From assembly GCF_024699945.1 (NCBI RefSeq), contig NZ_JAJOMY010000001.1:3665001-3729000 (forward strand): a stretch of DNA of 64,000 bases, written 5' to 3'. The DNA is from Phenylobacterium sp. J426. Lineage in GTDB: Bacteria; Pseudomonadota; Alphaproteobacteria; Caulobacterales; Caulobacteraceae. This document shows positions 26,130 to 41,272 of this stretch, one piece after another (positions within the stretch are counted from its first letter, which is position 1; the number at the start of each line of letters is the position of its first letter). The position numbers and the translations under genes are program-made. The notes under the pieces are model-generated. The model saw nothing but the letters and a program-made list of their open reading frames with translations, ran no database searches and was not told the DNA's origin.

Positions 26130-26281
26130 CTTCCTTCCAATCGTTCCTGCGGACTGCGATGGCGCGTTGAGCCGCGTCAACGTTCGCCGGCCTGAGGCGT
26201 CCGAGGCGATTGGCGCCGGGCTCCGGGCGTGAGACTCCAGGCCATGCCGACTCTTCACCGGATCAGCGACGGAGCCGCTGC

Positions 26282-27624
26282 GTGACGGCCGCGCCCACCG
26301 AGGCCGGAGTCGGCGCGATCCTGAGGCGGGTCGTGTCCAACGCCGGCGTGCTGCTGGGCGGCCGTTCGGTGAATGCGGTGCTGGGGCTGATCTATCTGGC
26401 CATCGCAGGGCGCAGCCTGGGCGCGGCCAACATGGGCGTTCTGGTGCTGATCACCGCCTTCGCCCAATTCCTCGGCGACGTGGTCAAGTTCCAGTCCTGG
26501 CAGACGGTGATCCATTACGGCGCGCGGCCCCTGGTGGAAGGCGACCGGCCGGCTTTCCAGCGGATGCTGCGCTTCACCCTCGTGCTGGATGCGGCCAGCA
26601 CGCTCCTGGGACTCGCCATCGGCGTCATCGGCTCTTTCGTGTTCGCCGACCGCCTTGGGTGGAGCCAGGCCATGGCGCCGGTGGCGGCGCTCTACATGCT
26701 CAGCATCGTCTTCGTCGTCTCGGCCATGCCGACCGGCCTGCTGCGGCTCTTCGACCGCTTCGACGTGCTGGCCCAGCAGACCGCGCTCGTGGGCTTCGTC
26801 CGCGTGCTTGGCAGCGTCGCAGCCTGGGCGTCGGGCGGCGGCGTGCCGGCGTTCCTGATGGCCTGGGCCGTGGGCAGCATCGCCGGTTGGCTCTACCTCG
26901 TGACGATGGGCGTTCGTGAACTGCGCCGCCGCGACCTGCTGGCCGACTTCTCGTGGAAAGGTCCGCTGGCCGATGGCATGCCGGGCGCCTGGCGCTTCGC
27001 CTGGAACACCAATCTGGCCGCCACTTTGGACGTGGCCTTCACCCACGTGGCCACCCTGATCGTCGGCGCCCTCGTGGGCCCTGCCCAGGCGGCGTTCTGG
27101 CGCGTGGGCCGGCAGGTGGCGGACGCCATCGCCAAGCCGGCCAAACTGCTGACGCCGGCGCTCTATCCCGAGTTGGCGAGACTGCGGGCGGGCGACCGCC
27201 ATGACGCCATGTGGCGCCTTGCCCGCCACGTGGGCGTTCTCGCCGGCGGCGTGGGCCTGGTGCTGCTCGCGGTCGCCGCCTTCGCCGGGGCCCGCTGCTC
27301 GCGCTCGTCATGGGTCCCGACTTCGCCCCGGCGGCCGGCGTGATGACCTGGCAGGTGGGCGCCGCAGTCATCGGCATCCTGGCCCTGCCGCTCGAGCCCA
27401 TGCTCGTCTCGCTCGGCAAGCCCGGACGGGCGGTGTGGGTGCGCCTGGTGGTCGGCGCCGCCTTCCTTGTCGCACTCCCCTTCCTTGTGCGGGCGTTCGG
27501 GCTTACAGGGGCCGGCGCAGGCTTGGTGGGGGCGGCCGCCGCCCTTGCCCTGGGCCTGGTCTGGTTCATCCTGAGAGAGAACGGGAATCGACCCGCCGCG
27601 CCGCCGTCGACCCCGACCGTCTGA
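26282..27624 (+). CDS. Polysaccharide/lipid flippase, MATE-like (frameshifted)
   Basis: Integral membrane protein of the Wzx/MurJ-MATE type with about 12 predicted helices in 447 residues after correction. It begins at GTG 26282, 7 bases after GGAG. The N-terminal SNAGVLLGGRSVNAVLGLIYLA, the central PALYPELARL-like motif (KLLTPALYPELARLRAGD) and the late LEPMLVSLGKP are family features. One G is missing in the G4 run at 27287-27290, which splits the last 110 residues. It directly precedes the ceramide synthesis genes by 10 bases and is likely cotranscribed, so a role in moving a sphingolipid-linked or glycan intermediate is suggested, not shown. Confidence 0.82.
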
Positions 27625-27634
27625 AAGACCTAGC

Positions 27635-29344
27635 GTGATCCCCACTCCGACAGCTCCGGACCGGCCGTTCCGCACCGGCGGCTTCGCCACCCTGACCGAG
27701 GCCCTGGACTTCGCGGCCGCCGGCCCGACGGGCGTCAACCTGTACGGCCTGCGCGGCGAACTGATCCTCGCCCTGCCCTACGCCGAGTTGCGCGAACGCG
27801 CCCGCGCCCTGGCGGCCCGATTCCTGGCCGCGGGCATCCAGCCCCTGGACCGGGTTGGTCTCGTCGCCGAGACGGACGCCGACTTCGTCGTCGCCTTCTT
27901 CGCCTGCCAGTACGCCCGGGTGACCCCCGCTCCGCTGCCCCTCCCGGCGCCGCTCGGCGGCCGCGAGGCCTATGTCGAGCAGATCGGCCGCATGCTGGGC
28001 TCCGCGAGGGCCGCCGCCGTGTTCGGCCCGGAGGCGCTCATCGACTGGCTCAGGGACGCCGCGGCCGCCGCCGGGACGCCCCGCGCCATGCGCGTCCAGG
28101 ACCTCCCCGAGGCGGCGCCCGTCGAGCTGACGGCGCCGCAGCCGGACGATCCTTGCTACGTCCAGTTCTCTTCGGGCAGCACGCGCAATCCCACCGGGGT
28201 GCTCTGCACTCACCGCGCGCTGATGGCCAACGCCACCGCTATCACCCGCGACGGCCTGAAGGTTGTCCCCGCGGACCGCGCCTTCTCCTGGCTGCCGCTC
28301 TATCACGACATGGGCCTGGTCGGCTTCCTGATGGCTCCGCTGGCGGCCCAGATGACCGTCGACCTGATGCCCACGGGCGCCTTCGTCCGCCGGCCGCTGA
28401 TGTGGTTGGACCTGATGTCCAAGAACAAGGCGACGGTCTCCTACAGCCCCACCTTCGGCTACGAGCTCTGCGCCCGGCGCGGCGACGGCGGCCGGGAAGG
28501 CCTCGACCTGTCGGCCTGGCGGATCGCGGGCTCGGGCGGCGACATGGTGCGGCCCGGTCCGCTGGCCGCGTTCGCCGAGCGTTTCGCCGCCACCGGCTTT
28601 TCGGAGAAGGCCTTCGTCGCCAGCTACGGCATGGCCGAGGCGACGCTCGCCTTGACCATGGCGCCGCTGGACACCGGGCTCCGCTTCGAGACGGTCGACA
28701 CCGATCGCATGGAGCGCGAGGGCGTCGCCGCGCCCGGCGAGAGCGGCCGCAGCCGCGCCTTCGTGCGCTGCGGCCCGGTGCTGCCGCTGCACGAACTGGA
28801 GGTCCGCGACGAGGCGGGCCGTGTCCTGCCCGAGCGTCGGGTCGGCCGGATCTTCGTCCGTGGCCCAAGCCTCATGCGCGAGTACTTCGGCGAGCCCGAG
28901 GCGTCGGCGCGCGTGCTTTCCGCCGACGGCTGGCTGGACACCGGCGACTTGGGCTTTCTCGCCGACGGCGAGATCGTGCCGACCGGTCGCGCCAAGGACC
29001 TGATCCTGCTGAACGGTCGCAACGTCTGGCCCCAAGACCTTGAGTGGTCTGCGGAATCTGAAATCGAAAAGCTGCGCAGCGGCGACGTCGCCGCCTTCTC
29101 AGTCGACCGCGACGCGGGCGAACAGCTGGTGGTGCTGGTGCAGGCCCGCAGCAGCGATCCCGAAGCGCGGCGCACGCTGGCGGACGACGTCGCGGCCCTC
29201 CTCCGGGCCCGTCACGGCGTGGAGGCCAAGGTCGAGTTGGTCGGGGCCCACGCCTTGCCGCAGACCTCGTCCGGCAAGCTCTCGCGCTCCAAGGCCAAGG
29301 CCCTCTACCTGGCCGGCGCCTTCGCCGCGGAGACCACGGCCTGA
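27635..29344 (+). CDS. aasR: Fatty-acyl-AMP ligase / acyl-ACP synthetase of ceramide synthesis
   Basis: Activates a fatty acid with ATP and likely loads it on the dedicated carrier protein AcpR. A 569-residue ANL-superfamily enzyme of the fatty-acyl-AMP ligase branch: core motif VQFSSGSTRNPTGV (A3-like), WLPLYHDMGLVG, FVASYGMAEATLAL, and GWLDTGDLGFLADGEI with the hinge. Catalytic Lys is in TSSGKLSRSK. GTG 27635 start. The neighbour order aasR-cerR-acpR-spt matches the ceramide genes described in Caulobacter crescentus (CC_1165 to CC_1162, from memory). Confidence 0.9.
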   Translation: MIPTPTAPDRPFRTGGFATLTEALDFAAAGPTGVNLYGLRGELILALPYAELRERARALAARFLAAGIQPLDRVGLVAETDADFVVAFFACQYARVTPAPLPLPAPLGGREAYVEQIGRMLGSARAAAVFGPEALIDWLRDAAAAAGTPRAMRVQDLPEAAPVELTAPQPDDPCYVQFSSGSTRNPTGVLCTHRALMANATAITRDGLKVVPADRAFSWLPLYHDMGLVGFLMAPLAAQMTVDLMPTGAFVRRPLMWLDLMSKNKATVSYSPTFGYELCARRGDGGREGLDLSAWRIAGSGGDMVRPGPLAAFAERFAATGFSEKAFVASYGMAEATLALTMAPLDTGLRFETVDTDRMEREGVAAPGESGRSRAFVRCGPVLPLHELEVRDEAGRVLPERRVGRIFVRGPSLMREYFGEPEASARVLSADGWLDTGDLGFLADGEIVPTGRAKDLILLNGRNVWPQDLEWSAESEIEKLRSGDVAAFSVDRDAGEQLVVLVQARSSDPEARRTLADDVAALLRARHGVEAKVELVGAHALPQTSSGKLSRSKAKALYLAGAFAAETTA

Positions 29345-30268: not shown

Positions 30269-30375
30269 TCGCCGTTTTGTGACGTGCGGCGCAGCGGATG
30301 GTGGAAATCCTAGGCCAACATGCTTAGGTACCGCCGCTGCGGTTGCAGTCTGTACGTACTTGGGGGGCTTGGCAC

Positions 30376-30630
30376 ATGGTGGAACTCGCGACGGATCTCA
30401 CCGTCCGCGAAGTCGCGAAGGCGGCCGAGACCGTGCTCCAGCGGCCGGTCAACGTCACCCCGGACACGGACATCGCCCGCGACCTCGCCGTCGACTCGCT
30501 CGCCCTGATGAACATCGTCATGGAGCTCGAGGACCGCTTCGACCTGTCGATCCCCCTCGACCGGCTGGCGACCGTCCAGACCGTCGGCGACCTCTCCGAA
30601 CTGATCAATACCCTGCGGACGAAGGCTTAA
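30376..30630 (+). CDS. acpR: Dedicated acyl carrier protein for ceramide synthesis
   Basis: An 84-residue acyl carrier protein. The phosphopantetheine attachment Ser is in the motif LAVDSLALMNIVMELED, where the usual DSL is present. Acidic helices surround it. It is followed after two bases by the serine palmitoyltransferase gene and is probably charged by AasR to give the acyl donor for Spt. ATG 30376 is preceded by a G-rich ribosome site at 30362-30368. Confidence 0.93.
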   Translation: MVELATDLTVREVAKAAETVLQRPVNVTPDTDIARDLAVDSLALMNIVMELEDRFDLSIPLDRLATVQTVGDLSELINTLRTKA

Positions 30631-30632
30631 GA

Positions 30633-31847
30633 ATGGGGCTGCTCGACAAGCATCTGGGCTATCGCGCCCCGTTGGAAGCCATCCGTGCGGTCGGCGCCGA
30701 TCCGTCCAACGTGCGCTTCGAGGCCATCACCTCGCCAACCGAGGGCGTGCTGAACGGCCGTCCGGTGATCCTGCTGGGCACCAACAACTACCTGGGCCTG
30801 ACCTTCGACCCCGACTGCATCGAGGCTTCGGCCGAGGCTGTGCGCCAGTGGGGCACCGGCACCACCGGGTCGCGCTTCGCCAACGGCACGTTCAAGGGCC
30901 ACGCCGCCCTGGAGCAGGCGCTCGCCAGCTTCTATGGCCGCAAGCACGCCATGGTGTTCACCACCGGCTATCAGGCGAACCTCGGGACCATCTCGGGCCT
31001 CGTCGGGCGCGGCGACCACCTGATCCTCGACGCCGACAGCCATGCGTCGATCTATGACGCAGCGAAGCTCTCGGGGGCCGAGGTCATCCGCTTCCGCCAC
31101 AACGACCCCGACGACCTGCACAAGCGCCTGCGCCGCCTCGGCGACGCGCCGGGCGGCCGGTTGATCGTCGTCGAGGGCATCTACTCCATGATCGGCGACG
31201 TGGCGCCCCTGAAGGAGTTCGTCGAGGTCAAGCGCGAGATGGGCGGCCACCTGCTGGTGGACGAGGCGCACTCGATGGGTGTGCTGGGCGAGAAGGGCCG
31301 CGGCCTGGCCGAGGCCGCCGGCGTCGAGGACGGCGTCGACTTCATCGTCGGCACCTTCTCGAAGAGCCTGGGCTCGGTCGGCGGCTTCCTCGTTTCGGAC
31401 GAGGAGAACTTCGACCTGCTGCGCATCGTCAGCCGGCCCTACATGTTCACCGCCTCGCTGCCGCCGGCGGTCATCGCTTCCACCCTCTCGGCGCTGAAGC
31501 GGCTTGAGGAAGACGCCAGCCTGCGCACCCGCCTCTCGGCCAACGCGGACCGGCTGTACGACGGCTTGCGCGACATGGGCTATTCGGTCGGCCCGCACGC
31601 CAGCCCGATCACCGCCGCCGAGATGCCCGACCAAGCGACCGCCGTCGGCATGTGGAACGCCCTGCTGCAGAACGGCGTGTACCTCAACCTCGCCATCCCG
31701 CCAGCCACGCCGGAGAACAAGTCGCTGCTGCGCTCCAGCGTCAGCGCGGCCCACACGCCCGAACAGATCGACGCTGTGCTCGCCGTGTTCGAACAGCTGG
31801 GCCAGGAGTTCGGCCTGCTGGAAGGCCGCCGCCGGGCGACCGCCTAG
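30633..31847 (+). CDS. spt: Serine palmitoyltransferase
   Basis: PLP enzyme that condenses serine with an acyl thioester to 3-keto-sphinganine, the first step of sphingolipid synthesis. 404 residues of the alpha-oxoamine synthase family: GTNNYLGL, GTGTTGSRFANGT, DADSHASIYD, the VDEAHSMGVLG Asp/His that hold PLP, and the Schiff-base Lys in GTFSKSLGSVGG. KBL/AONS-type synthases share these motifs, but the adjacent dedicated ACP and ceramide genes make Spt the clear call. AAGG precedes ATG 30633. Its stop shares CTAG with the convergent neighbour. Confidence 0.93.
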   Translation: MGLLDKHLGYRAPLEAIRAVGADPSNVRFEAITSPTEGVLNGRPVILLGTNNYLGLTFDPDCIEASAEAVRQWGTGTTGSRFANGTFKGHAALEQALASFYGRKHAMVFTTGYQANLGTISGLVGRGDHLILDADSHASIYDAAKLSGAEVIRFRHNDPDDLHKRLRRLGDAPGGRLIVVEGIYSMIGDVAPLKEFVEVKREMGGHLLVDEAHSMGVLGEKGRGLAEAAGVEDGVDFIVGTFSKSLGSVGGFLVSDEENFDLLRIVSRPYMFTASLPPAVIASTLSALKRLEEDASLRTRLSANADRLYDGLRDMGYSVGPHASPITAAEMPDQATAVGMWNALLQNGVYLNLAIPPATPENKSLLRSSVSAAHTPEQIDAVLAVFEQLGQEFGLLEGRRRATA

Positions 31848-32722
31848 CTCTTTCGGGCTTTCCGCAGGGTCCACAGCACACCGGGCGCCGCCAGGATCGG
31901 GTGGCGCTCGCGGAAGGGCGTGACCTCCAGGGCGACGCCCGTGTGCTTCTCGATCTTGTAGGCCGCATAGCGCGCCGCGCCGTCGAAGGTGAACGCGGCT
32001 TTCGCCAGCCTCGCCAGGTTCAGAGGCTTGCCAAGCGCCGAGCGCAGCGCCCAGCCCGGCAGGCCGCGCTTGTTCGGCCAGTAGGTCCCGGCCATCTCCG
32101 AGAACTCGACCCCCGCCGCGCGCCACGCCGGGCCCAGCAGGTCGGCGAACCGGCCGGCGTTCGACCCCAGCACCGCGTCGGCGCGATCGGGGCTCTCCAC
32201 CCGAAACTCGGCCGCGTAGGTCTTGCGGAACAGCGCCGTCCAATAGGCGTCTGGCGGGCCCTGCTGCGGGCCCAGCGCCGCGGCGTACCGAGAGGCCGTC
32301 TTGACCGCCTCGGCGACGGCCTGCACGACCTCCTCGTCATCCCCTGCGCTCCAGGCGATGGCCGCCGGCTGCACGAAGCGGGTCCAGATGGTGGTGTCCA
32401 GCGTGCGCCCTTCGGCCGCCTGGCGGAAAACCGACAGCGGCAGGGTGGCGGCCTTGGCCTTGAGCCCCTCGAACTCGTGGTAGCTGACCTCGGGCCAGAG
32501 CAGGCGCTCCACGGCGCCATGGAACCCCCGCCGGTGGGGCCGCCTGGTCAGTACGTAGAAGTCCAGCAGGCCCGAGAGGTCACCGGTCCTGAGCGTCGAG
32601 CCGTAGTAGAGCACCGCCACGTCCCGCGCCGGATCGGCCAACGCGGCGGCGAAGGCCCGTACGGCGTCCGGGAGCGGGCGCGCCAGTTCCCCGGCCAACC
32701 GCGCCTCCAGCGGCCCGCTCAT
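31844..32722 (-). CDS. Nucleotidyltransferase-like protein, candidate ceramide headgroup gene
   Basis: A 292-residue protein. The N-terminal LYYGSTLRTGDLSGLLDFYVL resembles the Gly-Ser and Asp-x-Asp signature of nucleotidyltransferases, and the layout (YYGS.., LDFYVLT.RP, then W..VSYHEFEGL) is reminiscent of Tam41-type CDP-diacylglycerol synthases. It is followed by two lipid-headgroup genes in the same operon. In Caulobacter a gene in this position (cpgA) is needed for ceramide phosphoglycerate; I call it the likely counterpart. It overlaps the kinase gene upstream by four bases (ATGA). A cytidylyl-transfer step is inference. Confidence 0.7.
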   Translation of the reverse strand: MSGPLEARLAGELARPLPDAVRAFAAALADPARDVAVLYYGSTLRTGDLSGLLDFYVLTRRPHRRGFHGAVERLLWPEVSYHEFEGLKAKAATLPLSVFRQAAEGRTLDTTIWTRFVQPAAIAWSAGDDEEVVQAVAEAVKTASRYAAALGPQQGPPDAYWTALFRKTYAAEFRVESPDRADAVLGSNAGRFADLLGPAWRAAGVEFSEMAGTYWPNKRGLPGWALRSALGKPLNLARLAKAAFTFDGAARYAAYKIEKHTGVALEVTPFRERHPILAAPGVLWTLRKARKS

Positions 32723-33633
32723 ACGACCACAAACTCCAGATCCGGCCCCTGCCGCACAATCAGCTCGCCGCCGGGATAGATCTCGCCGTCCAGCGTGAAG
32801 CCGCCTTCGAATGCCAGACCGATCTCCGAAACGTCGCGTCGACGGTAGCCCGCCTGTTCGAGCCAGGCGGCCTCGGATCCGGCGAGGAGCGCCGGAAGGG
32901 CCTTCGGAAGCTTCAGCGGCGGCGCTTCCACGGCTAGAACCTTGAGGCCCTCGTGCGGCGGGCCGAAGGGCTTCAGGCCCAGCGGGAACCGCTTCAGCGT
33001 CGCCGCCAGCACCAGGAACCAGTCCCGGGCCTCCGGCGCGGCGCCGCCCAGCGTCAGGGCGGCAGGCTCGCCGCGACGCCATGGGTCGTCCGCCCCACCC
33101 GCCAGCGTCCGACCGGCGGCGCTCAGGATGGTCATCACGATGGCCGCATTGTCGAAAAAGCCCAGGCCGTGGGTCTTCTGCGCCAGCTCGGTGCCTCTCA
33201 CGAAGGCGCCCATGCCGAACAGGAAGCCACGATGCTCCGGGACCGTCTCCCCGGGCCGCACCACCTCGAGGCAGGCGCGCAGCTTGCGCTTGGCCGGATC
33301 CCGCGCCGCCGCCAGCATGGCCCGGACCGGCGTGCCCAACGGCACGCCCAGGTCCAGCGCCAGCGCGTTGGTCTTGCCGTTCGGAATCACGCCGAACGTC
33401 GGCAGCCTATCGCCATAGGCCTTCGGCGCGCGGGTCAGCACGTCGCGCACCGTCCCGTCCCCGCCGTCAATCACCACCAGGTCGACGCCCGATTTCGCGA
33501 ACCAGGCCAGAGCCTCATAGAGATCGTCCGGCTTCTCCGGAACGGCCTCCAGCACGCCCGGCGGCGCGTCGGCCCGCGCCCCCGACTGGTTGCGGTGGCT
33601 CTTCAGGTTGCGGATGACCCCGGCGCGGATCAA
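32719..33633 (-). CDS. Lipid kinase, diacylglycerol/ceramide kinase type
   Basis: A 304-residue member of the DAGK catalytic family (DagK/LCB kinase). It has VVIDGGDGTVRDVL, the ATP-binding GGDGT motif, then GVIPNGKTNALALDLG. The C-terminal sandwich ends with FTLDGEIYPGGELIVRQGP, also typical. By position it should phosphorylate ceramide, as the Caulobacter ceramide kinase of this cluster does. The frame has no ATG near the core; TTG 33633 overlaps the upstream stop as TTGA and is the preferred start. Confidence 0.88.
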   Translation of the reverse strand: MIRAGVIRNLKSHRNQSGARADAPPGVLEAVPEKPDDLYEALAWFAKSGVDLVVIDGGDGTVRDVLTRAPKAYGDRLPTFGVIPNGKTNALALDLGVPLGTPVRAMLAAARDPAKRKLRACLEVVRPGETVPEHRGFLFGMGAFVRGTELAQKTHGLGFFDNAAIVMTILSAAGRTLAGGADDPWRRGEPAALTLGGAAPEARDWFLVLAATLKRFPLGLKPFGPPHEGLKVLAVEAPPLKLPKALPALLAGSEAAWLEQAGYRRRDVSEIGLAFEGGFTLDGEIYPGGELIVRQGPDLEFVVV

Positions 33634-34739
33634 CGCGCCAGCCAGGACACGACCCGGCCCTTCGGCAGCGCCATGGCTTGCACCACCTGCACCAGGTGCA
33701 CGATCAGGCAGATCGCCGTCCAGACGCCGACGAGGAACAGACCCCAGCCCGGCTGGCCGAACAGCCAAGCCAGCGTCAGGATGATCAGGTTGGGGTTCCG
33801 CCGCGCGGTGATCAGCCGGAAGAAGCTGTCGAACGGCCGCCAGCTGTGCACGTGGAAGCCGAACAGGCGCATGAACACGCCCTCCTCCACGCGCTGCAGC
33901 ACATAGCCGGCAAGTATCACGGCCAGGGTCAGTTCGGGGAACGGCGGAGGCAGGCCGACCTGGAAACAGCCGACGTACCAGGCCCACCACCAGAACGGCG
34001 GGTGGATCAGGTCGATGCCGTGGTCGAAGACATTGCCCCACTTCGACGAGGTCATGGTGGTGCGGGCGAGCTTGCCGTCCACCGTGTCCAGGAACGTCAT
34101 GACCCAGCCGGCCAGCAGGCCCCAGCCGAACTCGCCGATCCAGAACAGCCAGAAGGCCGCAAGCACCAGCAGGAAGCCGGCGAAGGTGACCATGTTCGGC
34201 GTCAGCTTGGCCTCAGCGCACCAGCGGGTGACGATCCGCGCCGGCACGGGCCATGCGTACTTCGTCACAAGATCGGTGACGCCCTTGTATGAGCCGGCGA
34301 AGGTGCGGGCTTCGATCGCGCGGACATTCTCCCGGCTCAGCTGGGCCAGCACCGGCGCTTCGCGCTTTCGCAGCGCCTCGTTGTATGCGAGCTCGTCGGG
34401 GCTCACGATCGTGAGGCCCACCGTCGGCCGACCGGCGGTGAGGTCCTGGGCGGCGGCCTCGGCCTGCCCGGCGGCGACATGGGCGGCCACCGCGCGTCCG
34501 TCGGCGGTCACCAGGACCGAGCCCGGCCGCTGAGCCAGGGTCTTCACCAGGGTCTCGTCATAGACCCAATCGCCCAGGGTGATCACCGCGGGCCGCCCGC
34601 TTGGCGGCGCCTCCACCGGCTCGACGCCCGAGCGGACGTACTGCCGCCGCAGCCGCTCGCGCGCCGTCATGCCCCACAGGCGCACGTCGCCAACGCCGAC
34701 GATCAGCCCTGCGGGCGCGGTCTTGCCCTCGGTCGTCAA
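33630..34739 (-). CDS. CDP-alcohol phosphatidyltransferase with N-terminal domain
   Basis: A 369-residue membrane enzyme that would transfer a phosphoalcohol from a CDP-linked donor. The signature D-x2-DG-x2-AR-x8-G-x3-D-x3-D is perfect (DTVDGKLAR then GNVFDHGID). About six membrane helices follow the N-terminal 150 residues, which form a soluble nucleotide-binding-like domain (WGMTARERLRRQ, VYDETLVKTL, LVTADGRAVAAHV). TTG 34739 keeps this domain whole; ATG 34670 is the alternative. First gene of a three-gene operon with the lipid kinase and nucleotidyltransferase. Likely counterpart of the Caulobacter ceramide phosphoglycerate synthase gene. Confidence 0.88.
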   Translation of the reverse strand: MTTEGKTAPAGLIVGVGDVRLWGMTARERLRRQYVRSGVEPVEAPPSGRPAVITLGDWVYDETLVKTLAQRPGSVLVTADGRAVAAHVAAGQAEAAAQDLTAGRPTVGLTIVSPDELAYNEALRKREAPVLAQLSRENVRAIEARTFAGSYKGVTDLVTKYAWPVPARIVTRWCAEAKLTPNMVTFAGFLLVLAAFWLFWIGEFGWGLLAGWVMTFLDTVDGKLARTTMTSSKWGNVFDHGIDLIHPPFWWWAWYVGCFQVGLPPPFPELTLAVILAGYVLQRVEEGVFMRLFGFHVHSWRPFDSFFRLITARRNPNLIILTLAWLFGQPGWGLFLVGVWTAICLIVHLVQVVQAMALPKGRVVSWLAR

Positions 34740-34815: not shown

Positions 34816-35700
34816 TTGTCCACCTTCCGCCTCGCCCATCTCTCGGACCCGCACCTGACGCCGCCCGACTCGGCGATGCGCGGCGGCGGCCTGTCCAAAC
34901 GCGTGCTCAGCCGCTTCGCCTGGCGGCGCAAGCGCCATCGGCACGATCCGGCGGTCCTGGAGACGATCGCCGCCGACGTCCGCGCCGCGCGACCCGACCA
35001 TGTCGCCGTGACAGGCGATCTCACCAATTTCGCGACGCCGGAAGAGTTCGCCGCCGCGGCGCGCTGGCTGGAACGGCTGGGCGACCCCTCCGCCGTCACA
35101 GTGAGTCCCGGCAACCACGACGCGCTGGTGTCCCGCGGAGCCCCGGCCCGCTTTGCGCCGTGGAGCCGCTGGCTGGGCGATCGTCCTGACGCGGAGTTCC
35201 CCCATATCCGCGTGCGCGGCCCGGTCGCCGTGATCAACGCCTGCTCGGCGGTCCCGACCGCACCGCACCTGGCCACCGGGGAATTGGGCTCGGCCCAGCT
35301 CCAGCGCCTCTCGGAGGCCCTCGAGGAAACGGGAGCCAAGGGCCTCTTCCGCGTCCTGCTGGTGCATCATCCGATCGCGCCCGGGCTCGTGTCGAAACGC
35401 AAATCGCTGACCGACGCCCAGGCGCTTCGTGAGCTGCTCGCCCGTCGTGGCGCCGAGCTCGTCCTGCACGGCCACGCCCACGAGGCGCTGCTGAACCGCG
35501 TCAACGGCCCCTCAGCGGCGATCCCGACGCTCGGCGTCCCGTCGGCGTCGACGCCGCCCGGTCACCACGACCCGGCCGCTCGCTGGAATCTCATCGAGAT
35601 CGCCCGGGGGGCGGACGGCTTCCAACTTCGGGTCCAGGCGCGCGGCGTGCGGGACGGTCCCGTCGTGGCGCCGCTCGGCGCCTTCACCCTGGCCGCCTAG
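34816..35700 (+). CDS. Calcineurin-like metallophosphoesterase
   Basis: A 294-residue two-metal phosphoesterase. Metal ligands appear in order: LSDPH, VTGDLTN, SPGNHDAL, LVHHPI and LHGHAHEALL. The start TTG 34816 is inferred since the LSDPH motif lies only 9 residues after it and no ATG is available. It is divergent from the CDP-alcohol transferase with a 76-base gap. In the sphingolipid context it may dephosphorylate a lipid or CDP-linked intermediate. The exact substrate is unknown. Confidence 0.85.
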   Translation: MSTFRLAHLSDPHLTPPDSAMRGGGLSKRVLSRFAWRRKRHRHDPAVLETIAADVRAARPDHVAVTGDLTNFATPEEFAAAARWLERLGDPSAVTVSPGNHDALVSRGAPARFAPWSRWLGDRPDAEFPHIRVRGPVAVINACSAVPTAPHLATGELGSAQLQRLSEALEETGAKGLFRVLLVHHPIAPGLVSKRKSLTDAQALRELLARRGAELVLHGHAHEALLNRVNGPSAAIPTLGVPSASTPPGHHDPAARWNLIEIARGADGFQLRVQARGVRDGPVVAPLGAFTLAA

Positions 35701-35792: not shown

Positions 35793-36227
35793 GTGACCAA
35801 TCCGACGGCCCGCAAGTTCGGCTATCCGCGCAGTCTTGTCGCCGAGACCGGCTCCTGGCTGGTCCTTGTGCGCCCCCAGCAGCCGACGTTCGGCTCGCTC
35901 GTGCTTGTGTGCAAGGAGACGGCGGAGGCCTTCTCGGACCTGTCGCCGGCGGCCTTCGCCGACCTGAAGACAGCGGTCGACGGAATCGAGGCTCTGCTGC
36001 GCGACGCCGTGGGCTACGAAAAGATCAACTACCTGATGCTGATGATGGTCGATAAGGACGTGCACTTCCACGTCCTGCCGCGCTACGACGGTTCCCGTGA
36101 GTACGGCGGGAACAGTTTCCCCGACGCCGGCTGGCCAGGCCAGCCGCAACTGGCGTCCCATGTCGCCCTGGGCGAGGACGAGGCCGCGGCGTTGGCCGCT
36201 GACTTCGCCGCGCGCTGGCGCGCCTGA
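35793..36227 (+). CDS. HIT-family protein
   Basis: A 144-residue HIT-superfamily protein. The catalytic-type triad motif is present as DKDVHFHVLPRY, which has two of the usual three alternating histidines (H-x-H; the first position is Asp-Val), so it is closest to HIT hydrolases/phosphorylases but may be altered in activity. GTG 35793 start. It is followed by lptF after 15 bases in the same direction. HIT proteins act on nucleotidyl groups, which would suit clearing nucleotide-linked intermediates here. Confidence 0.78.
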   Translation: MTNPTARKFGYPRSLVAETGSWLVLVRPQQPTFGSLVLVCKETAEAFSDLSPAAFADLKTAVDGIEALLRDAVGYEKINYLMLMMVDKDVHFHVLPRYDGSREYGGNSFPDAGWPGQPQLASHVALGEDEAAALAADFAARWRA

Positions 36228-36242
36228 CCGCCGAGCGGACCT

Positions 36243-37443
36243 GTGAGCCTGATCGACCGCTACCTGCTGCGGCTGGCCTTCTGGCCCATGGTGGGCGCCA
36301 CGGGCGTCACCCTCGTGGCCCTGCTGCTGGAGCGGATCCTGCGGCTGCTCGACATGCTGTCGGCCTCCAGCGACCGCTTCAGCTTCGTGGCCCAACTCGC
36401 CGTGAACCTGGTTCCCCATTACATGGGCCTCACCTTGCCGGCCGCCTTCTTCATCGCCCTGATCGTGGTGGTGAACCGGATGAACCAGGCTTCTGAGGTC
36501 GACGCCCTGCTAGCCGCGGGCGTCTCGCTGACCCGCCTCGCCGCCCCCCTACCTCGCGCTGGCCGGCGTGCTCAGCTTCCTCACCCTGATCGTCTTCGGC
36601 GTCCTGCAACCCTACAGCCGCTACGCCTACCGCGCCGTGCTGCACGCCGCCCAGAACGCCGGCTGGAGCGGCGTCGTCCCCGAGGGGACGATCATCGAAC
36701 CGAACGACAAGCTGACCATGACCACGGACCAGGCCGACGCGGCCGGTCAGCGGCTCAGCAGGGTGTTCATCCGCCGCATCGACGAGAACGGCCGCGAGGA
36801 GGTCACCACCGCCGGCATGGCCGAGCTGCGCCGCACCGCCGATGGCCAGAACGTGACGCTGGCGCTCAAGGACGGGCAGCAGCTGCGGTTCAACGCGCGC
36901 GGCGAGCCGGAACTGTTGAGCTTCCAGGATTTCACGATGCAGCTGCCGCTCAGCGGCCCGGCGCGGCTCCTGCGCGCCCGCGGCGGCGACGAGCGGGAGC
37001 TCAACCTGTTCGAACTGGCCGCCAAGGCGAAGGACCCACATTCGGTCATTCCGAAGGAGACCCTGCTGGCCGAGCTCTACGGCCGCCTCGCCCGGGCGCT
37101 CGCCCTGCCGCTGCTGCCGCTGCTCGCCGTTCCGCTGGGTCTGTCGGCGAAGCGCAGCGGCCGGGCCCCCGGCGTCATCGTCGGCGGCATCCTGCTGCTC
37201 GCCTTCCATCACCTGATCCAGCTGGGCCAGGGGTTCGCAGAGACTGGCCGCGCGCCGGCCGAGCTCAGTGTCGGCCTGCCTTTCGGCGTCTTCGCGGCCA
37301 TCTGCCTGACGGTCTTCCTGACCAGCCGCAAACGCCCAGGCGAAACCCCGATCGGGCGGCTGATGGAGCGCCTCTCCGTCCTCGCCGCCCGCATCCGCAC
37401 GCGGATCCGGCGGCGGCGACCGGCTGAAGGCGCCGCCGCATGA
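36243..37443 (+). CDS. lptF: LptF-type permease of lipid export, sphingolipid cluster copy (frameshifted)
   Basis: Inner-membrane YjgP/YjgQ family permease of about 399 residues: N-terminal helices (MSLIDRYLLRLAFWPM, LVPHYMGLTLPAAFFIAL), a periplasmic beta-jellyroll-like domain in the middle, and C-terminal helices (LPLLPLLAVPLGLSAKRSGRA). An extra C in the C6 run at 36544-36549 breaks the first helix bundle (after SLTRLAAP). It overlaps lptG by ATGA. Genes of this type beside ceramide genes in Caulobacter are thought to help move anionic sphingolipid; the main LPS copy would be elsewhere. GTG start 36243. Confidence 0.9.
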
Positions 37444-38498
37444 GGCTCGCCCGTTATCTGTTCATGCTGACGGCCGGCCGCATCCTCGCGGCGCTGGCGG
37501 TGCTGGTGGGGGTCCTGCAGATCCTCGACCTGCTCGACGTCACGACGGAAATCCTCGACCGCGGACTGGGCGCGGGCGGCGTCTTCTACTACGGCCTCCT
37601 CAGGCTTCCGCGACTGATCGAGCAGGCCGCGCCGCTGGCGGTGCTGGCCGGCGCCCTCTTCGCCTTCGCAAAGCTGGCGGGCGAGAGCGCGGTGACCGCC
37701 ATGCGCTCGACCGGCATCTCGGCCTATCGCATCACGGCGCTGGCGCTACCGGCCGCCGCCCTGCTGGCTGCGGTCCAGCTGCTGAACGGCATGGTGATCG
37801 CGCCGCGCGCCGACGCCAGGCTCGCCGACTGGTGGCAGTCCACAGCGCCCCAGGAGGAGGCGGCGAAACCGCAGGACCAGATGACGTTCCGGGTGGGCGA
37901 CGAGATCGTCGTGGGCCGTCCCTCCGAGGATGCCCGGCGACTCGACGGGCTGACGATCTACCGGCGCGACGCCACCGGCCGCCTGGTCCAGCGGACGACG
38001 GCCGAAGCGGCCGTCTACGACCAGGGCGCGTGGCGTCTTGTGGCGCCGCGCTTTGAAGCGGTCTCGCCCGAGGGCGTGAGTTCGGGCGCGGCCCAATCGA
38101 TGACCTGGACCCAGAACATCAGACCCGCCGACGTCCAGGCGCTGCGCAGCGGGGCCGCCACCGTCTCGGCGGCCGAGGCCCGGCGTGCGTTGCAGGGTGG
38201 CGTTTCGGTGCGCCCGAGAACGTTCTACGACACCCAGGTGCAGCGGGCGTGGGCCGCGCCGTTCGCCTGCATCGTCATGCTGCTGCTCGCCGCGCCGGCC
38301 GCCATGGCCAATTTCCGCGGCGGCGCCTCGACCCTGATCGTCCAGTGTATGGCCGCTGGTCTCGTGTTCCTGGTCTTCGACGGCGCGTTCACGGCGCTGG
38401 GCGAGAACGGCGCCGCGCCGGCGATCCTCGCGGCCTGGGCGGCCCCGGCGATCTTCTCGGCGCTCGGCCTCACCGCCCTCCTCTACCTGGAGGGTTGA
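37440..38498 (+). CDS. lptG: LptG-type permease of lipid export, sphingolipid cluster copy
   Basis: Partner permease of LptF, 352 residues. N-terminal LTAGRILAALAVLVGVLQILDLLD, the PRLIEQAAPLAVLAGALFAF segment, a periplasmic domain (about 130-260), and C-terminal helices with PFACIVMLLLAAPAAM. It joins an ATPase of the LptB type, not found in this window. It overlaps the ceramide synthase gene downstream (TGATG), which ties the transporter to sphingolipid supply. Confidence 0.9.
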   Translation: MRLARYLFMLTAGRILAALAVLVGVLQILDLLDVTTEILDRGLGAGGVFYYGLLRLPRLIEQAAPLAVLAGALFAFAKLAGESAVTAMRSTGISAYRITALALPAAALLAAVQLLNGMVIAPRADARLADWWQSTAPQEEAAKPQDQMTFRVGDEIVVGRPSEDARRLDGLTIYRRDATGRLVQRTTAEAAVYDQGAWRLVAPRFEAVSPEGVSSGAAQSMTWTQNIRPADVQALRSGAATVSAAEARRALQGGVSVRPRTFYDTQVQRAWAAPFACIVMLLLAAPAAMANFRGGASTLIVQCMAAGLVFLVFDGAFTALGENGAAPAILAAWAAPAIFSALGLTALLYLEG

Positions 38499-39646
38499 TG
38501 GCCTACGACGACCCAGCCTCCAGCGTGCGCCTCCTGCCCGTCAGGACGCCCGCCGAGCTGGAGCGCTTCATCCGCGTGCCCATGCGGCTGCAGGCGAACG
38601 ATCCGAACTATATCGCCCCGCTCATGCTGGAGCGACGCGAAGCGCTTTCGGCGAAGACCAACCCCTTCTTCCAGCACGCCGAGGTCCAGTTCTGGCTGGC
38701 GGTGAAGGACGGCCGCGACGTAGGCCGCATCTCGGCCCAGATCGACCAGCTCAATCCCCAGACCGGGGAGGGCTACGGCAACTTCGGCCTGATCGCCGCC
38801 GAGGACGATCCGGAGGTCTTCGCCGCCCTCTTCGGCGCGGCCGAGGCCTGGTTGCGCGAACGCGGCTGCAAGGCGGCCCTTGGGCCGGTCAACCTCTCCA
38901 CCAACGAGGAGGTCGGCCTGCTGGTCGAGGGGCACGACACGCCGCCCATGGTGCTGATGGGCCACGACGCGCCGTTCACCGGCGCCCGGATCGAGGGCCA
39001 GGGCTACGCCAAGGCAAAGGACATCTACGCTTACGAGTGCAGCGTCGACCATGACCTTCCACCGGCGATCCTCCGCCGCGTGCGCAAGCCTGCCGCCGAT
39101 GGCGTGGTGCTGCGCACCTTGGACATGAAGCGCTTCGAGGCTGAGGTCCGCACGCTCACGGACATCCTCAACGACGCCTGGGCGGGCAACTGGGGCTTCA
39201 CGCCCACCACCGAGGCGGAGACCAAACAGCTCGCCACGGCGCTGAAGATGGTCATCGATCCGCGCCTTACCTGGTTCGCGGAGATCGATGGCGAGCCCGC
39301 GGGCTTCATGGTGCTGCTGCCCAACGTCAACGAGGCCATCGCGGACCTGAAGGGCAGGCTCGTCCCCTTCGGTTGGGCGAAGCTGCTCTGGCGGCTGAAG
39401 GTCGGGCGCGTGAAGTCCGGCCGGGTGCCGCTGATGGGCGTGAAACGGAAGTTCGCCTCGACCCACCGGGGCCAGCTGCTGCCCTTCCAGCTGATCGACG
39501 CCGTCGTCCTGGCGGCGCGTAAGCTCGGCTACAAGCGCTACGAACTGTCGTGGATCCTCGAGGACAACGCGCCGATGCGCCGCATCTGCGAGGCCGGCGG
39601 CGCGCGCATCTACAAGACCTATCGGCTATACGAGAAGGCGCTTTGA
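38498..39646 (+). CDS. cerS: Bacterial ceramide synthase, GNAT-like N-acyltransferase
   Basis: A 382-residue protein with a GNAT-like acyltransferase fold, expected to N-acylate the sphingoid base. Family features include FIRVPMRLQANDPNYIAPL, the GPVNLSTNEEVGLLVEG segment and a C-terminal YELSWILEDNAPMRRICEAGGARIYKTYRLYEK, matching the bacterial ceramide synthase of Caulobacter (CC_1154, from memory). It is unrelated to eukaryotic ceramide synthases. It starts on a TGATG overlap with lptG and ends on TTGA with the next gene. Confidence 0.87.
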   Translation: MAYDDPASSVRLLPVRTPAELERFIRVPMRLQANDPNYIAPLMLERREALSAKTNPFFQHAEVQFWLAVKDGRDVGRISAQIDQLNPQTGEGYGNFGLIAAEDDPEVFAALFGAAEAWLRERGCKAALGPVNLSTNEEVGLLVEGHDTPPMVLMGHDAPFTGARIEGQGYAKAKDIYAYECSVDHDLPPAILRRVRKPAADGVVLRTLDMKRFEAEVRTLTDILNDAWAGNWGFTPTTEAETKQLATALKMVIDPRLTWFAEIDGEPAGFMVLLPNVNEAIADLKGRLVPFGWAKLLWRLKVGRVKSGRVPLMGVKRKFASTHRGQLLPFQLIDAVVLAARKLGYKRYELSWILEDNAPMRRICEAGGARIYKTYRLYEKAL

Positions 39647-40396
39647 CCGGCTTCTCGGCCCTCGTGCTCGCCGGCTCGCGTGGGGGGGGCAGACCCGGTC
39701 GCGGACTATGCCGGGGTGGCGCACAAGGCGCTGATCGAACTCGAGGGCCGGCCCCTGCTGGCGCGCGTCGCGCAAGCGCTCCACGAGGCCGGCGCCGCCC
39801 GCGTCGGCGTCTCGTGCAACCACCCGGCCGTGGCGGCCCTGGCGCGCGACCTCGGCCTGGAGGTCCTGCCCGCGGCCGCCGGGCCCAGCCAGAGCGTCTT
39901 CGAAGGCGCCCAGGCGCTCGGCTTCCCGCTGCTGGTCACCACCGCGGACCACGCCCTGCTGCAGCCGGAGTGGGTCACGCGCTTCCTGGACGACATTCCG
40001 GCTGGAACCGACGTCGCCGCCCTCGTCGCGCCGAAGACCGCCGTCGAGGCCGCCGCGCCCACGACGAGGCGCACCTACCTCAAGCTGGCCGACGGCTGGT
40101 GGTCGGGCTGCAACCTCTTCTGGCTGGGCCGCGAGCAGGCGCTGGGCGCTGTGGCCTTCTGGCGCCGGCTCGAGGCCGAACGGAAGCGCCCCTGGAAGAT
40201 GGCGCGGATCCTCGGCCTTGGGATGCTGCTGAAGTACGTGACCGGGGCCCTGAGCCTCTCCGGCGCGGCCAGGCGGCTGGGCGAGCTGGCCGGCGTCGAG
40301 GCTCGCGTGGTCGCGACCCCGTATGGCCTGGCCGCTGTCGATGTGGACAAGCCCGCGGATCTCGATCTCGTCCGCGAGCTGACGGGAGGCCGCTAG
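39643..40396 (+). CDS. MobA-like NTP transferase (frameshifted)
   Basis: A 250-residue protein with an N-terminal nucleotidyltransferase-like loop (ALVLAGSRGGADPVADYAGVAHKALIELEGRPLLARV), then LLVTTADHALL, the metal-binding region, and a sugar/alcohol-phosphate-binding end (PYGLAAVDVDKPADLDLV). An extra G in the G8 run at 39682-39689 breaks the loop; removing it gives one frame. The start is TTG 39643, overlapping the cerS stop as TTGA. Donor and acceptor are unknown; it may make a nucleotide-linked headgroup donor. Confidence 0.82.
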
Positions 40397-41145
40397 GCGG
40401 TCACCGCCTCCTTCACCCAGCCGGCCGACAGCTTCATCAGGTTGTCGACGTCGGCGGGGAAGTCCATTTCGCCCCATTGCAACCCCTCGATCGACTGCAC
40501 CCGCACGTCGACGCCGCTGCGGGCCAGTTCGTCGATCGCCGAGAGGTACCACCGCTTCAGGCCTTCCGGCCGCTGCAGCGCCTGCTCCACGGCCGCGCGG
40601 AACTTGGCCGCGCCAACGGGCGAAAGGCGCAGGAAGCCGATCGACTCGGCGTCGTAGGCCTCGATGGTCTTGCCGATCGCCAGCAGCTTGCCGTGGTCGG
40701 TCAGCACCTTCATGTCGTCGGCGTCATAGCCCGGCTTGCGGTCGACGGTCACGGTGATCTCCGCAGGACCCGCCGCCTGTAGGCGCTCGACGATGCCTGG
40801 GCCAGGCAGCGTGTCGCCATTCAGCAGGAACACCTCGCGGTCGAACAGCTCGCGCACGATCCAGACCGAGGCGAGGTTGTCGGCTACCGAATAGAATGGG
40901 TTGAAGGCCAGCCGCACCGGCATCTTCGGCGCCAGGCGCGCGATCTCCGCCTCGACAGCGTCGGCCCGGAAGCCGGTGACGATCACCGCCTCTTCGACGC
41001 CTGCCGCCTCCAGCCGCTGCAGCTGCCAGGCGAGCAACGTCTTTCCCGAAAGCTCCACCAGGCACTTCGGCCGGGTTTCGGTCAGCGGCAGCAGGCGCTT
41101 GCCCTGCCCGGCGCTCAGGATGATGGCTCTGTTCGGCGACGTCAC
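40393..41145 (-). CDS. Nucleotidyltransferase, phosphocholine cytidylyltransferase-like
   Basis: A 250-residue nucleotidyltransferase of the LicC/RmlA-like type. It has the N-terminal AIILSAGQGKRLLPLTETRPK loop with the binding Lys, a FLLNGDTLPGPGIVERL metal-binding Asp, and VDNLMKL near the end. It should make a CDP- or NDP-activated small alcohol or sugar phosphate. The start GTG 41145 follows AGGGATCAAG. It is convergent with the MobA-like gene and shares its CTAG stop. In this setting it could supply a donor for lipid headgroup addition. Confidence 0.83.
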   Translation of the reverse strand: MTSPNRAIILSAGQGKRLLPLTETRPKCLVELSGKTLLAWQLQRLEAAGVEEAVIVTGFRADAVEAEIARLAPKMPVRLAFNPFYSVADNLASVWIVRELFDREVFLLNGDTLPGPGIVERLQAAGPAEITVTVDRKPGYDADDMKVLTDHGKLLAIGKTIEAYDAESIGFLRLSPVGAAKFRAAVEQALQRPEGLKRWYLSAIDELARSGVDVRVQSIEGLQWGEMDFPADVDNLMKLSAGWVKEAVTA

Positions 41146-41272
41146 GGGCTTGATCCCTGGCGAATGGTCGGGCCTGGATACACCGGAGGCGCACGCCCGC
41201 GGCCGTGATGCATTGCCGCGCCCGCCCCCCCGTTTGGCGAGCATCTTATCTAGTGCGCATTCCCGAAATGTG

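Follow-up and report, generated by a model that had tools for sequence, protein, structure and literature searches.

The 64,000-nucleotide stretch of Phenylobacterium sp. J426 analysed here (contig NZ_JAJOMY010000001.1, positions 3,665,001 to 3,729,000; hereafter the window) carries three minus-strand genes that overlap end to end, at 31844-32722 (292 amino acids), 32719-33633 (304 amino acids) and 33630-34739 (369 amino acids). The cpgA stop and cpgB start overlap as TTGA and the cpgB stop and cpgC start as ATGA, and spt converges with the trio, the cpgC and spt stops overlapping tail to tail in CTAG. An overlapping minus-strand trio beside spt, as described in an earlier sequence-only reading, is therefore confirmed by its coordinates and junctions. 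The trio is orthologous to cpgC-cpgB-cpgA of Caulobacter, a known gene set, and what is new here is a structural assignment for CpgC, the least understood of its proteins. The genes of the locus are as follows.

31844..32722, minus strand: cpgC orthologue (CC_1161/CCNA_01219); Tam41-fold model; 52% identity to C. vibrioides L079
32719..33633, minus strand: cpgB orthologue, ceramide kinase; DAGK_cat, GGDGT; TTG start overlaps the cpgA stop
33630..34739, minus strand: cpgA orthologue, class I CDP-alcohol phosphotransferase; CDP-OH_P_transf; Af2299-type N-terminal domain at about 6-148; transmembrane domain of about six helices
30633..31847, plus strand: spt, serine palmitoyltransferase; NCBIfam equivalog NF047599, 660 bits (cut-off 500)
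27635..29344, plus strand: aasR-like fatty acyl-AMP ligase; NF006624, 857 bits
29422..30282, plus strand: cerR-like reductase; synteny with L079; the open frame extends further upstream
30343..30630, plus strand: acpR-like acyl carrier protein; synteny; coordinates of the listed open reading frame (ORF), in which the true start may lie further downstream
34816..35700, plus strand: CC_1158-like metallophosphoesterase; PF00149, E-value (E) 5.7e-12; start inferred from sequence
35793..36227, plus strand: HIT family protein (CC_1157-like); synteny; L113 homologue annotated HIT family
36243..37443, plus strand: lptF2-like permease, with its reading frame changing near 36547; L113 homologue annotated LptF/LptG family
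37440..38498, plus strand: lptG2-like permease; synteny; L113 homologue annotated LptF/LptG family
38498..39646, plus strand: cerS (CC_1154), GNAT-type bacterial ceramide synthase; synteny with L079
39680..40396, plus strand: CC_1153-like MobA/CofC-type nucleotidyltransferase; NTP_transf_3, E 4.3e-17; 58% identity to L079; start may lie upstream
40393..41244, minus strand: cpgD orthologue (CC_1152/CCNA_01210), CTP:phosphoglycerate cytidylyltransferase; G-x-G-x-R, R-P-K and N-G-D motifs; true start probably downstream

When the window proteins were searched in two loci (L079 and L116), order and orientation proved to be shared with C. vibrioides L079 from aasR through cpgD (aasR, cerR, acpR, spt, cpgC, cpgB, cpgA, metallophosphoesterase, HIT, lptF2, lptG2, cerS, MobA/CofC-like, cpgD), with 47-72% identity for spt, cpgA, cpgB, cpgC, cpgD and cerS. 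The closest named CpgC locus among the matches listed is a Phenylobacterium metagenome-assembled genome (MAG), at 85% identity. Pfam assigns DAGK_cat to the kinase (E 2.5e-12), in which the lipid-kinase motif is present, and CDP-OH_P_transf to the transferase (E 2.7e-11). The cpgD gene lies about 6 kb from the module, within the window, and its product keeps, by eye, the catalytic residues R, K and D named in PMC12275187 (GQGKR, RPK, NGD). This gene-by-gene synteny bears out the suggestion that the trio represents the Caulobacter ceramide phosphoglycerate genes. A scope of three genes held in part only: the trio is real, but the pathway is larger and includes cpgD, which stands outside it.

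In Caulobacter, ceramide phosphoglycerate (CPG) and ceramide diphosphoglycerate (CPG2) have been identified by high-resolution mass spectrometry, and such anionic sphingolipids help the organism to live without lipopolysaccharide and underlie its sensitivity to polymyxin (PMC12275187, PMC11324152). CpgB is a ceramide kinase, the biochemistry of which is given in PMC10331486. CPG needs CpgB and CpgC, and deletion of cpgC abolishes it (PMC11324152), while its formation is reported to need neither CpgA nor CpgD (PMC11324152, PMC12275187). CPG2 needs CpgA, CpgD and CC_1153, with a contribution from CC_1158 (PMC11324152). The product of CpgD is cytidine diphosphate (CDP)-glycerate, several phosphoglycerates being accepted in vitro (PMC12275187), and CpgD structures have been published (PMC13228409). 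LptF2/G2 have been proposed as the lipid exporters (PMC11324152). The authors of the PLoS Pathogens study (PMC11324152) noted an InterPro domain hinting that CpgC might be a CDP-diacylglycerol synthase, raised an NDP-activated ceramide as one possibility and regarded direct attachment of glycerate as energetically not very favourable. The module is already published, as is the basic suggestion that CpgC performs an activation step, and neither is new. In PMC11324152 and PMC12275187 the conversion of ceramide 1-phosphate to CPG is left open, and for this step the Tam41 match described below supplies a concrete, assayable reaction. No mention of CDP-ceramide was found among open-licence PMC papers, Tam41 is absent from the main text of PMC11324152, and no paper treating Tam41 together with Caulobacter was found among the open-licence PMC matches listed.

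Searches with the CpgC of the window gave no match in Pfam (E up to 1) or in NCBIfam (E up to 0.1). Homologues were collected from 398 Pseudomonadota genomes (CerS and CpgC matches at E up to 0.001; CpgA counted at 230 bits or more), and 24 CpgC sequences from the 27 genomes with a match were aligned, omitting those of G295 (a near copy in score of G363, of the same genus) and of G103 and G394 (two-piece matches). The AlphaFold model built from this alignment has a mean predicted local distance difference test score (pLDDT) of 92.3. With it, the first five Foldseek rows are all Tam41 proteins, of yeast and of a member of the Firmicutes (E 5.9e-9 for 6ig4_A and 1.9e-6 for 7ecd). VIA-align superposes model residues 14-246 on the Firmicutes Tam41-CTP-Mg structure 7ecd (CTP, cytidine triphosphate) with Z 18.5 over 219 residues and a root-mean-square deviation (rmsd) of 2.9, and gives Z 15.1 with yeast Tam41 (6ig4); the best other fold is an aminoglycoside nucleotidyltransferase, with Z 7.2 over 112 residues. 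The match spans both the nucleotidyltransferase (NTase) and the winged-helix parts described for Tam41 (PMC7018664). Residues D54, K90, R115, P119, Y169 and R174 are invariant in all 24 sequences, and D54 is the sole invariant acidic residue within residues 1-150; Tam41 is reported to retain one of the three usual acidic residues (PMC11646218). The lysine, the R-F-x-x-P motif and the Y-x-x-D/E-x-R motif of CpgC align with those of both yeast and Firmicutes Tam41. The 'Tam41-like look' previously ascribed to the first protein has thus been borne out by structure.

Several results weigh against this assignment. The Foldseek query TM-scores for the Tam41 rows are modest (0.50-0.61). The window CpgC gives no match to the Pfam Tam41 family (PF09139), which is reached by one of the 24 aligned sequences (E 1.1e-4), and the single PF09139 genome match among the 398 scores 21 bits, under the cut-off of 24. 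A profile search of the PDB with the CpgC alignment returned no Tam41 at E up to 1, and an hhalign comparison of the CpgC profile with a yeast Tam41 fragment was weak (E 0.052, probability 1%). CpgC is read as a nucleotidyltransferase because its model matched Tam41, the tests from sequence having been weak or failed. On the strength of the model, CpgC appears to work like Tam41, yet is not a curated PF09139 member. It most likely makes CDP-ceramide from ceramide 1-phosphate, as the Tam41 fold and the place of CpgC after the ceramide kinase would suggest. The fuller claim, namely that CpgC is a soluble Tam41-fold CTP:ceramide-1-phosphate cytidylyltransferase and that a bacterial sphingolipid headgroup would be built via CDP-ceramide, in parallel to CDP-diacylglycerol, is put forward tentatively, at slightly less than even odds.

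The occurrence of these genes across the 398 genomes is nested, with CerS in 43, CpgC in 27 and CpgA in 10: CerS is found in all 27 CpgC genomes, CpgC in all 10 CpgA genomes and in none of the 355 genomes without a CerS match. Matches to the CpgA query in 40 more genomes reach at most 37 bits and are read as other CDP-alcohol transferases. CpgD was searched for in the 27 CpgC genomes, where it occurs (148 bits or more) in exactly the 10 having CpgA, which represent nine genera; below these, the highest score of a CpgD-like protein is 76.8 bits (G345). This co-occurrence gives a Fisher value of 1.2e-7 (1.3e-6 counting G345), with kinship ignored. In 78 of the 80 best named loci, a set limited to these best matches from which the outer range of CpgC is not inferable, cpgC has a cpgB match no more than 700 bases away on its own strand, and the same holds for 22 of 25 other stretches (20 kb each, G295 omitted). 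The exceptions among the named loci are L106, where the contig ends, and L070, without cpgB; among the other stretches, cpgB is about 820 bases away in L132 and about 720 in L135, and in L136 (G114) none was found, but a run of N is present. In L070 (8880-10864, a Caulobacteraceae MAG) cpgC comes directly after cpgA, and the 20-kb stretch contains no match to cpgB. CpgB and CpgC form a unit, found in 17 of the 27 genomes in the absence of CpgA and CpgD, and CpgA-CpgD is an add-on pair; the gene nesting splits the pair for the first headgroup (CpgB, CpgC) from that for the second (CpgA, CpgD). That CC_1153 also tracks CpgA was considered and rejected, matches to it being present in all 27 CpgC genomes, down to 65 bits and with paralogues likely included.

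In the pathway proposed here, CpgC would activate ceramide 1-phosphate with CTP to give CDP-ceramide, which would react with glycerate or phosphoglycerate to form CPG through a transferase outside the module, the candidate being a PgsA-like protein, the only other PF01066 protein found in the genome. CpgD, as others have shown (PMC12275187), makes CDP-glycerate, from which CpgA would move phosphoglycerate to CPG, yielding CPG2 in keeping with published genetics. Exact CpgA-CpgD co-occurrence and the Af2299-like architecture of CpgA both support the use of CDP-glycerate by CpgA. LptF2/G2 would probably export the lipid, as proposed in PMC11324152. Taken as a whole, from CpgC via CDP-ceramide through CpgA to CPG2, this pathway is considered reasonably probable.

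The CPG-forming transferase is the weakest link of the proposal. If CDP-ceramide is made, CPG must be formed from it by PgsA, by CpgC itself or by some protein that does not belong to the PF01066 family. No dedicated transferase for the step was seen, and CPG is reported to be made without CpgA (PMC11324152). In each of the window genome (G000, 94% complete), G259 and G351, which are all the sampled genomes of its family with CpgC, PF01066 is represented by two proteins: CpgA and a PgsA-like protein that scores best against the NCBIfam pgsA model (106.8-110.7 bits over the matched part, the cut-off being 109.1). One PF01066 protein could be missing from the window genome, given its completeness. 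Among the 17 CpgC genomes without CpgA and CpgD, 11 have only two PF01066 proteins and the other six have three to five. That in Caulobacteraceae the housekeeping PgsA, the only other CDP-alcohol transferase found, would take the acceptor step with a phosphoglycerate as its substrate is judged unlikely. The possibility that clusters lacking cpgA have another CDP-alcohol transferase in their gaps was rejected: in seven stretches with ORFs, the long gap ORFs do not look, by eye, like transferases but like flippases, desaturases or hydroxylases of fatty acids and, in one case, a permease of the LptF/G type.

The same observations bear on a simpler scheme, in which CpgC alone turns ceramide 1-phosphate into CPG with no free CDP-ceramide, as in published schemes that leave the mechanism unstated. 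The reported requirement of CPG for CpgB and CpgC, and not for CpgA or CpgD (PMC11324152, PMC12275187), agrees with it, as do the 17 genomes without CpgA and CpgD, of which the 11 with two PF01066 proteins make no dedicated transferase evident. On the other hand, the fold of CpgC is that of a CTP-using nucleotidyltransferase, and the energetic objection of the PLoS Pathogens authors to direct glycerate attachment (PMC11324152) applies here, so that this scheme is regarded as rather unlikely. The Tam41 fold would also suit an ordinary Tam41-type CDP-diacylglycerol synthase lying beside spt by chance. However, a PF01148 (CdsA-type) protein is present in all 27 CpgC genomes, which speaks against CpgC as the only CDP-diacylglycerol synthase of the cell, and the restriction of CpgC to genomes with a CerS match, the closeness of cpgB in 78 of 80 and 22 of 25 loci and the loss of CPG on cpgC deletion in Caulobacter (PMC11324152) leave such an explanation very improbable.

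For CpgA, 30 sequences were aligned (the window, one each from 27 chosen of the 47 loci with matches, and L176 and L178). All eight residues of the signature of class I CDP-alcohol phosphotransferases, D-xx-DG-xx-AR...G-xxx-D-xxx-D, are invariant in the 30. A profile search found Af2299 over residues 15-240, a range that takes in the N-terminal domain (E 7e-10), a phosphatidylinositol-phosphate (PIP) synthase fusion (E 2.5e-10) and choline phosphotransferase 1 (8ero; E 1.2e-9). The CpgA model (pLDDT 93.3) matches Af2299 with Z 24.3 over 311 residues and rmsd 3.2, IPCT-DIPPS over its full length with Z 22.0 and choline phosphotransferase with Z 12.9; Foldseek places a PIP synthase construct first and Af2299 second. 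The choline phosphotransferases, eukaryotic enzymes with a soluble donor and a lipid acceptor, match the transmembrane part of CpgA. That part consists of about six helices, a number read by eye from the model's list of helices, without three or four extra C-terminal helices such as lipid-acceptor CDP-alcohol transferases typically carry (PMC4634129). Six helices fit badly with CPG as the acceptor and count against the last step as drawn; if the extra-helix rule holds, the acceptor of CpgA may instead be soluble and its donor a lipid, and that step would then be a different one.

The N-terminal domain of CpgA raises the question of whether the enzyme might be bifunctional, making its own CDP donor as IPCT-DIPPS does. 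Its fold is cytidylyltransferase-like (Z about 8.4-9 with MobA, IspD, IPCT and others), the full-length match to IPCT-DIPPS is consistent with such a function, and D61 is kept in 29 of the 30 sequences. Against this, the domain has about 140 residues, compared with about 200 for IPCT, and a comparison by sequence finds the arginine of position R20 in 19 and the aspartate of D57 in 8 of the 30. A separate CpgD is, moreover, found in exactly those of the 27 genomes that bear CpgA, and a bifunctional CpgA is thus scarcely to be expected. The domain, which is less conserved than the transmembrane part (mean top-residue share 0.49 against 0.69), is a shortened form of the cytidylyltransferase-like accessory known from Af2299, in which such a domain is cytosolic, and is probably not a catalyst; Af2299 is also reported to accommodate CDP-glycerol (PMC4634129). 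An unusual activated donor, as had been anticipated, does exist, in the CDP-glycerate made by CpgD (PMC12275187), the orthologue of which is encoded at 40393-41244. The N-terminal domain of the transferase is not supported as a sign of it, as it resembles the Af2299 accessory and, judged by sequence, its positions equivalent to G-x-G-x-R and G-D are unconserved. The same genes could also make a different acidic headgroup in Phenylobacterium, for example ceramide phosphoglycerol, in view of the several phosphoglycerates taken by CpgD in vitro (PMC12275187); with the CpgD catalytic motifs kept and the Caulobacter synteny complete, this is quite improbable.

Variation in the cluster was seen at several points. 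In G008, besides a CpgA of 52% identity, there are two CpgA-like proteins at 33-34% (L125 16348-17334 and G008:C11:237247-237921), one of them between lptG2 and cerS. Long open frames in L044 and L086 that resembled a cpgA-cpgB fusion were set aside as a probable frame error. In the window, lptF2 (36243-37443) consists of two open frames meeting near 36547, where a Phenylobacterium homologue is a single frame, and the flippase gene at 26210-27624 also looks, by eye, split over two frames; both splits are likely assembly errors and possibly losses. In Roseomonas marmotae L113 (NZ_CP061095.1) the ceramide, cpg and lptF/G cluster is on a 320-kb plasmid record, and Roseomonas plasmid records numbered 13 in the cpgC search and 13 in the cpgA search. 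L114 (NZ_CP065408.1 46964-77623) is part of the conjugative IncP plasmid pDCB2 of Diaphorobacter sp. JS3051, and carries cpgD, a CC_1153-like gene, a cerS-like gene, two CpgA paralogues, cpgC, a DAGK-type kinase, lptF/G, HIT and phosphoesterase genes. Neither spt nor cerR has a match in this stretch, which instead encodes a fatty acyl-AMP ligase, an adenylation-carrier protein, a P450, a desaturase and a lipid A-type acyltransferase. It looks as if the genes for headgroup and export had been combined here with a different lipid anchor.

Compared with known systems, the locus is closest to the cpgABCD ceramide (di)phosphoglycerate pathway of Caulobacter crescentus (CC_1152-CC_1162), which it matches from cpgD to aasR in the genes present, their order and their orientation, with the ceramide core genes spt, acpR, cerR, aasR and cerS likewise beside cpgA, B, C and D. 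Phenylobacterium is, however, another genus, its lptF2 is split by a frame change and the pathway is predicted here from its genes. With Tam41/TAMM41, the mitochondrial and Firmicutes CTP:phosphatidate cytidylyltransferase, CpgC shares the NTase plus winged-helix fold, the single invariant acidic residue and the motifs, but it lacks a PF09139 match, it is accompanied by CerS in 27 of 27 genomes and its lipid substrate is presumably ceramide 1-phosphate. CpgA, finally, shares its two-domain architecture and signature motif with Af2299 and IPCT-DIPPS, the Archaeoglobus CDP-alcohol phosphotransferases. Its N-terminal domain is short and poorly conserved by comparison, and it acts, by published genetics, on a sphingolipid, whereas lipids are not processed by either of the archaeal enzymes (PMC4634129).

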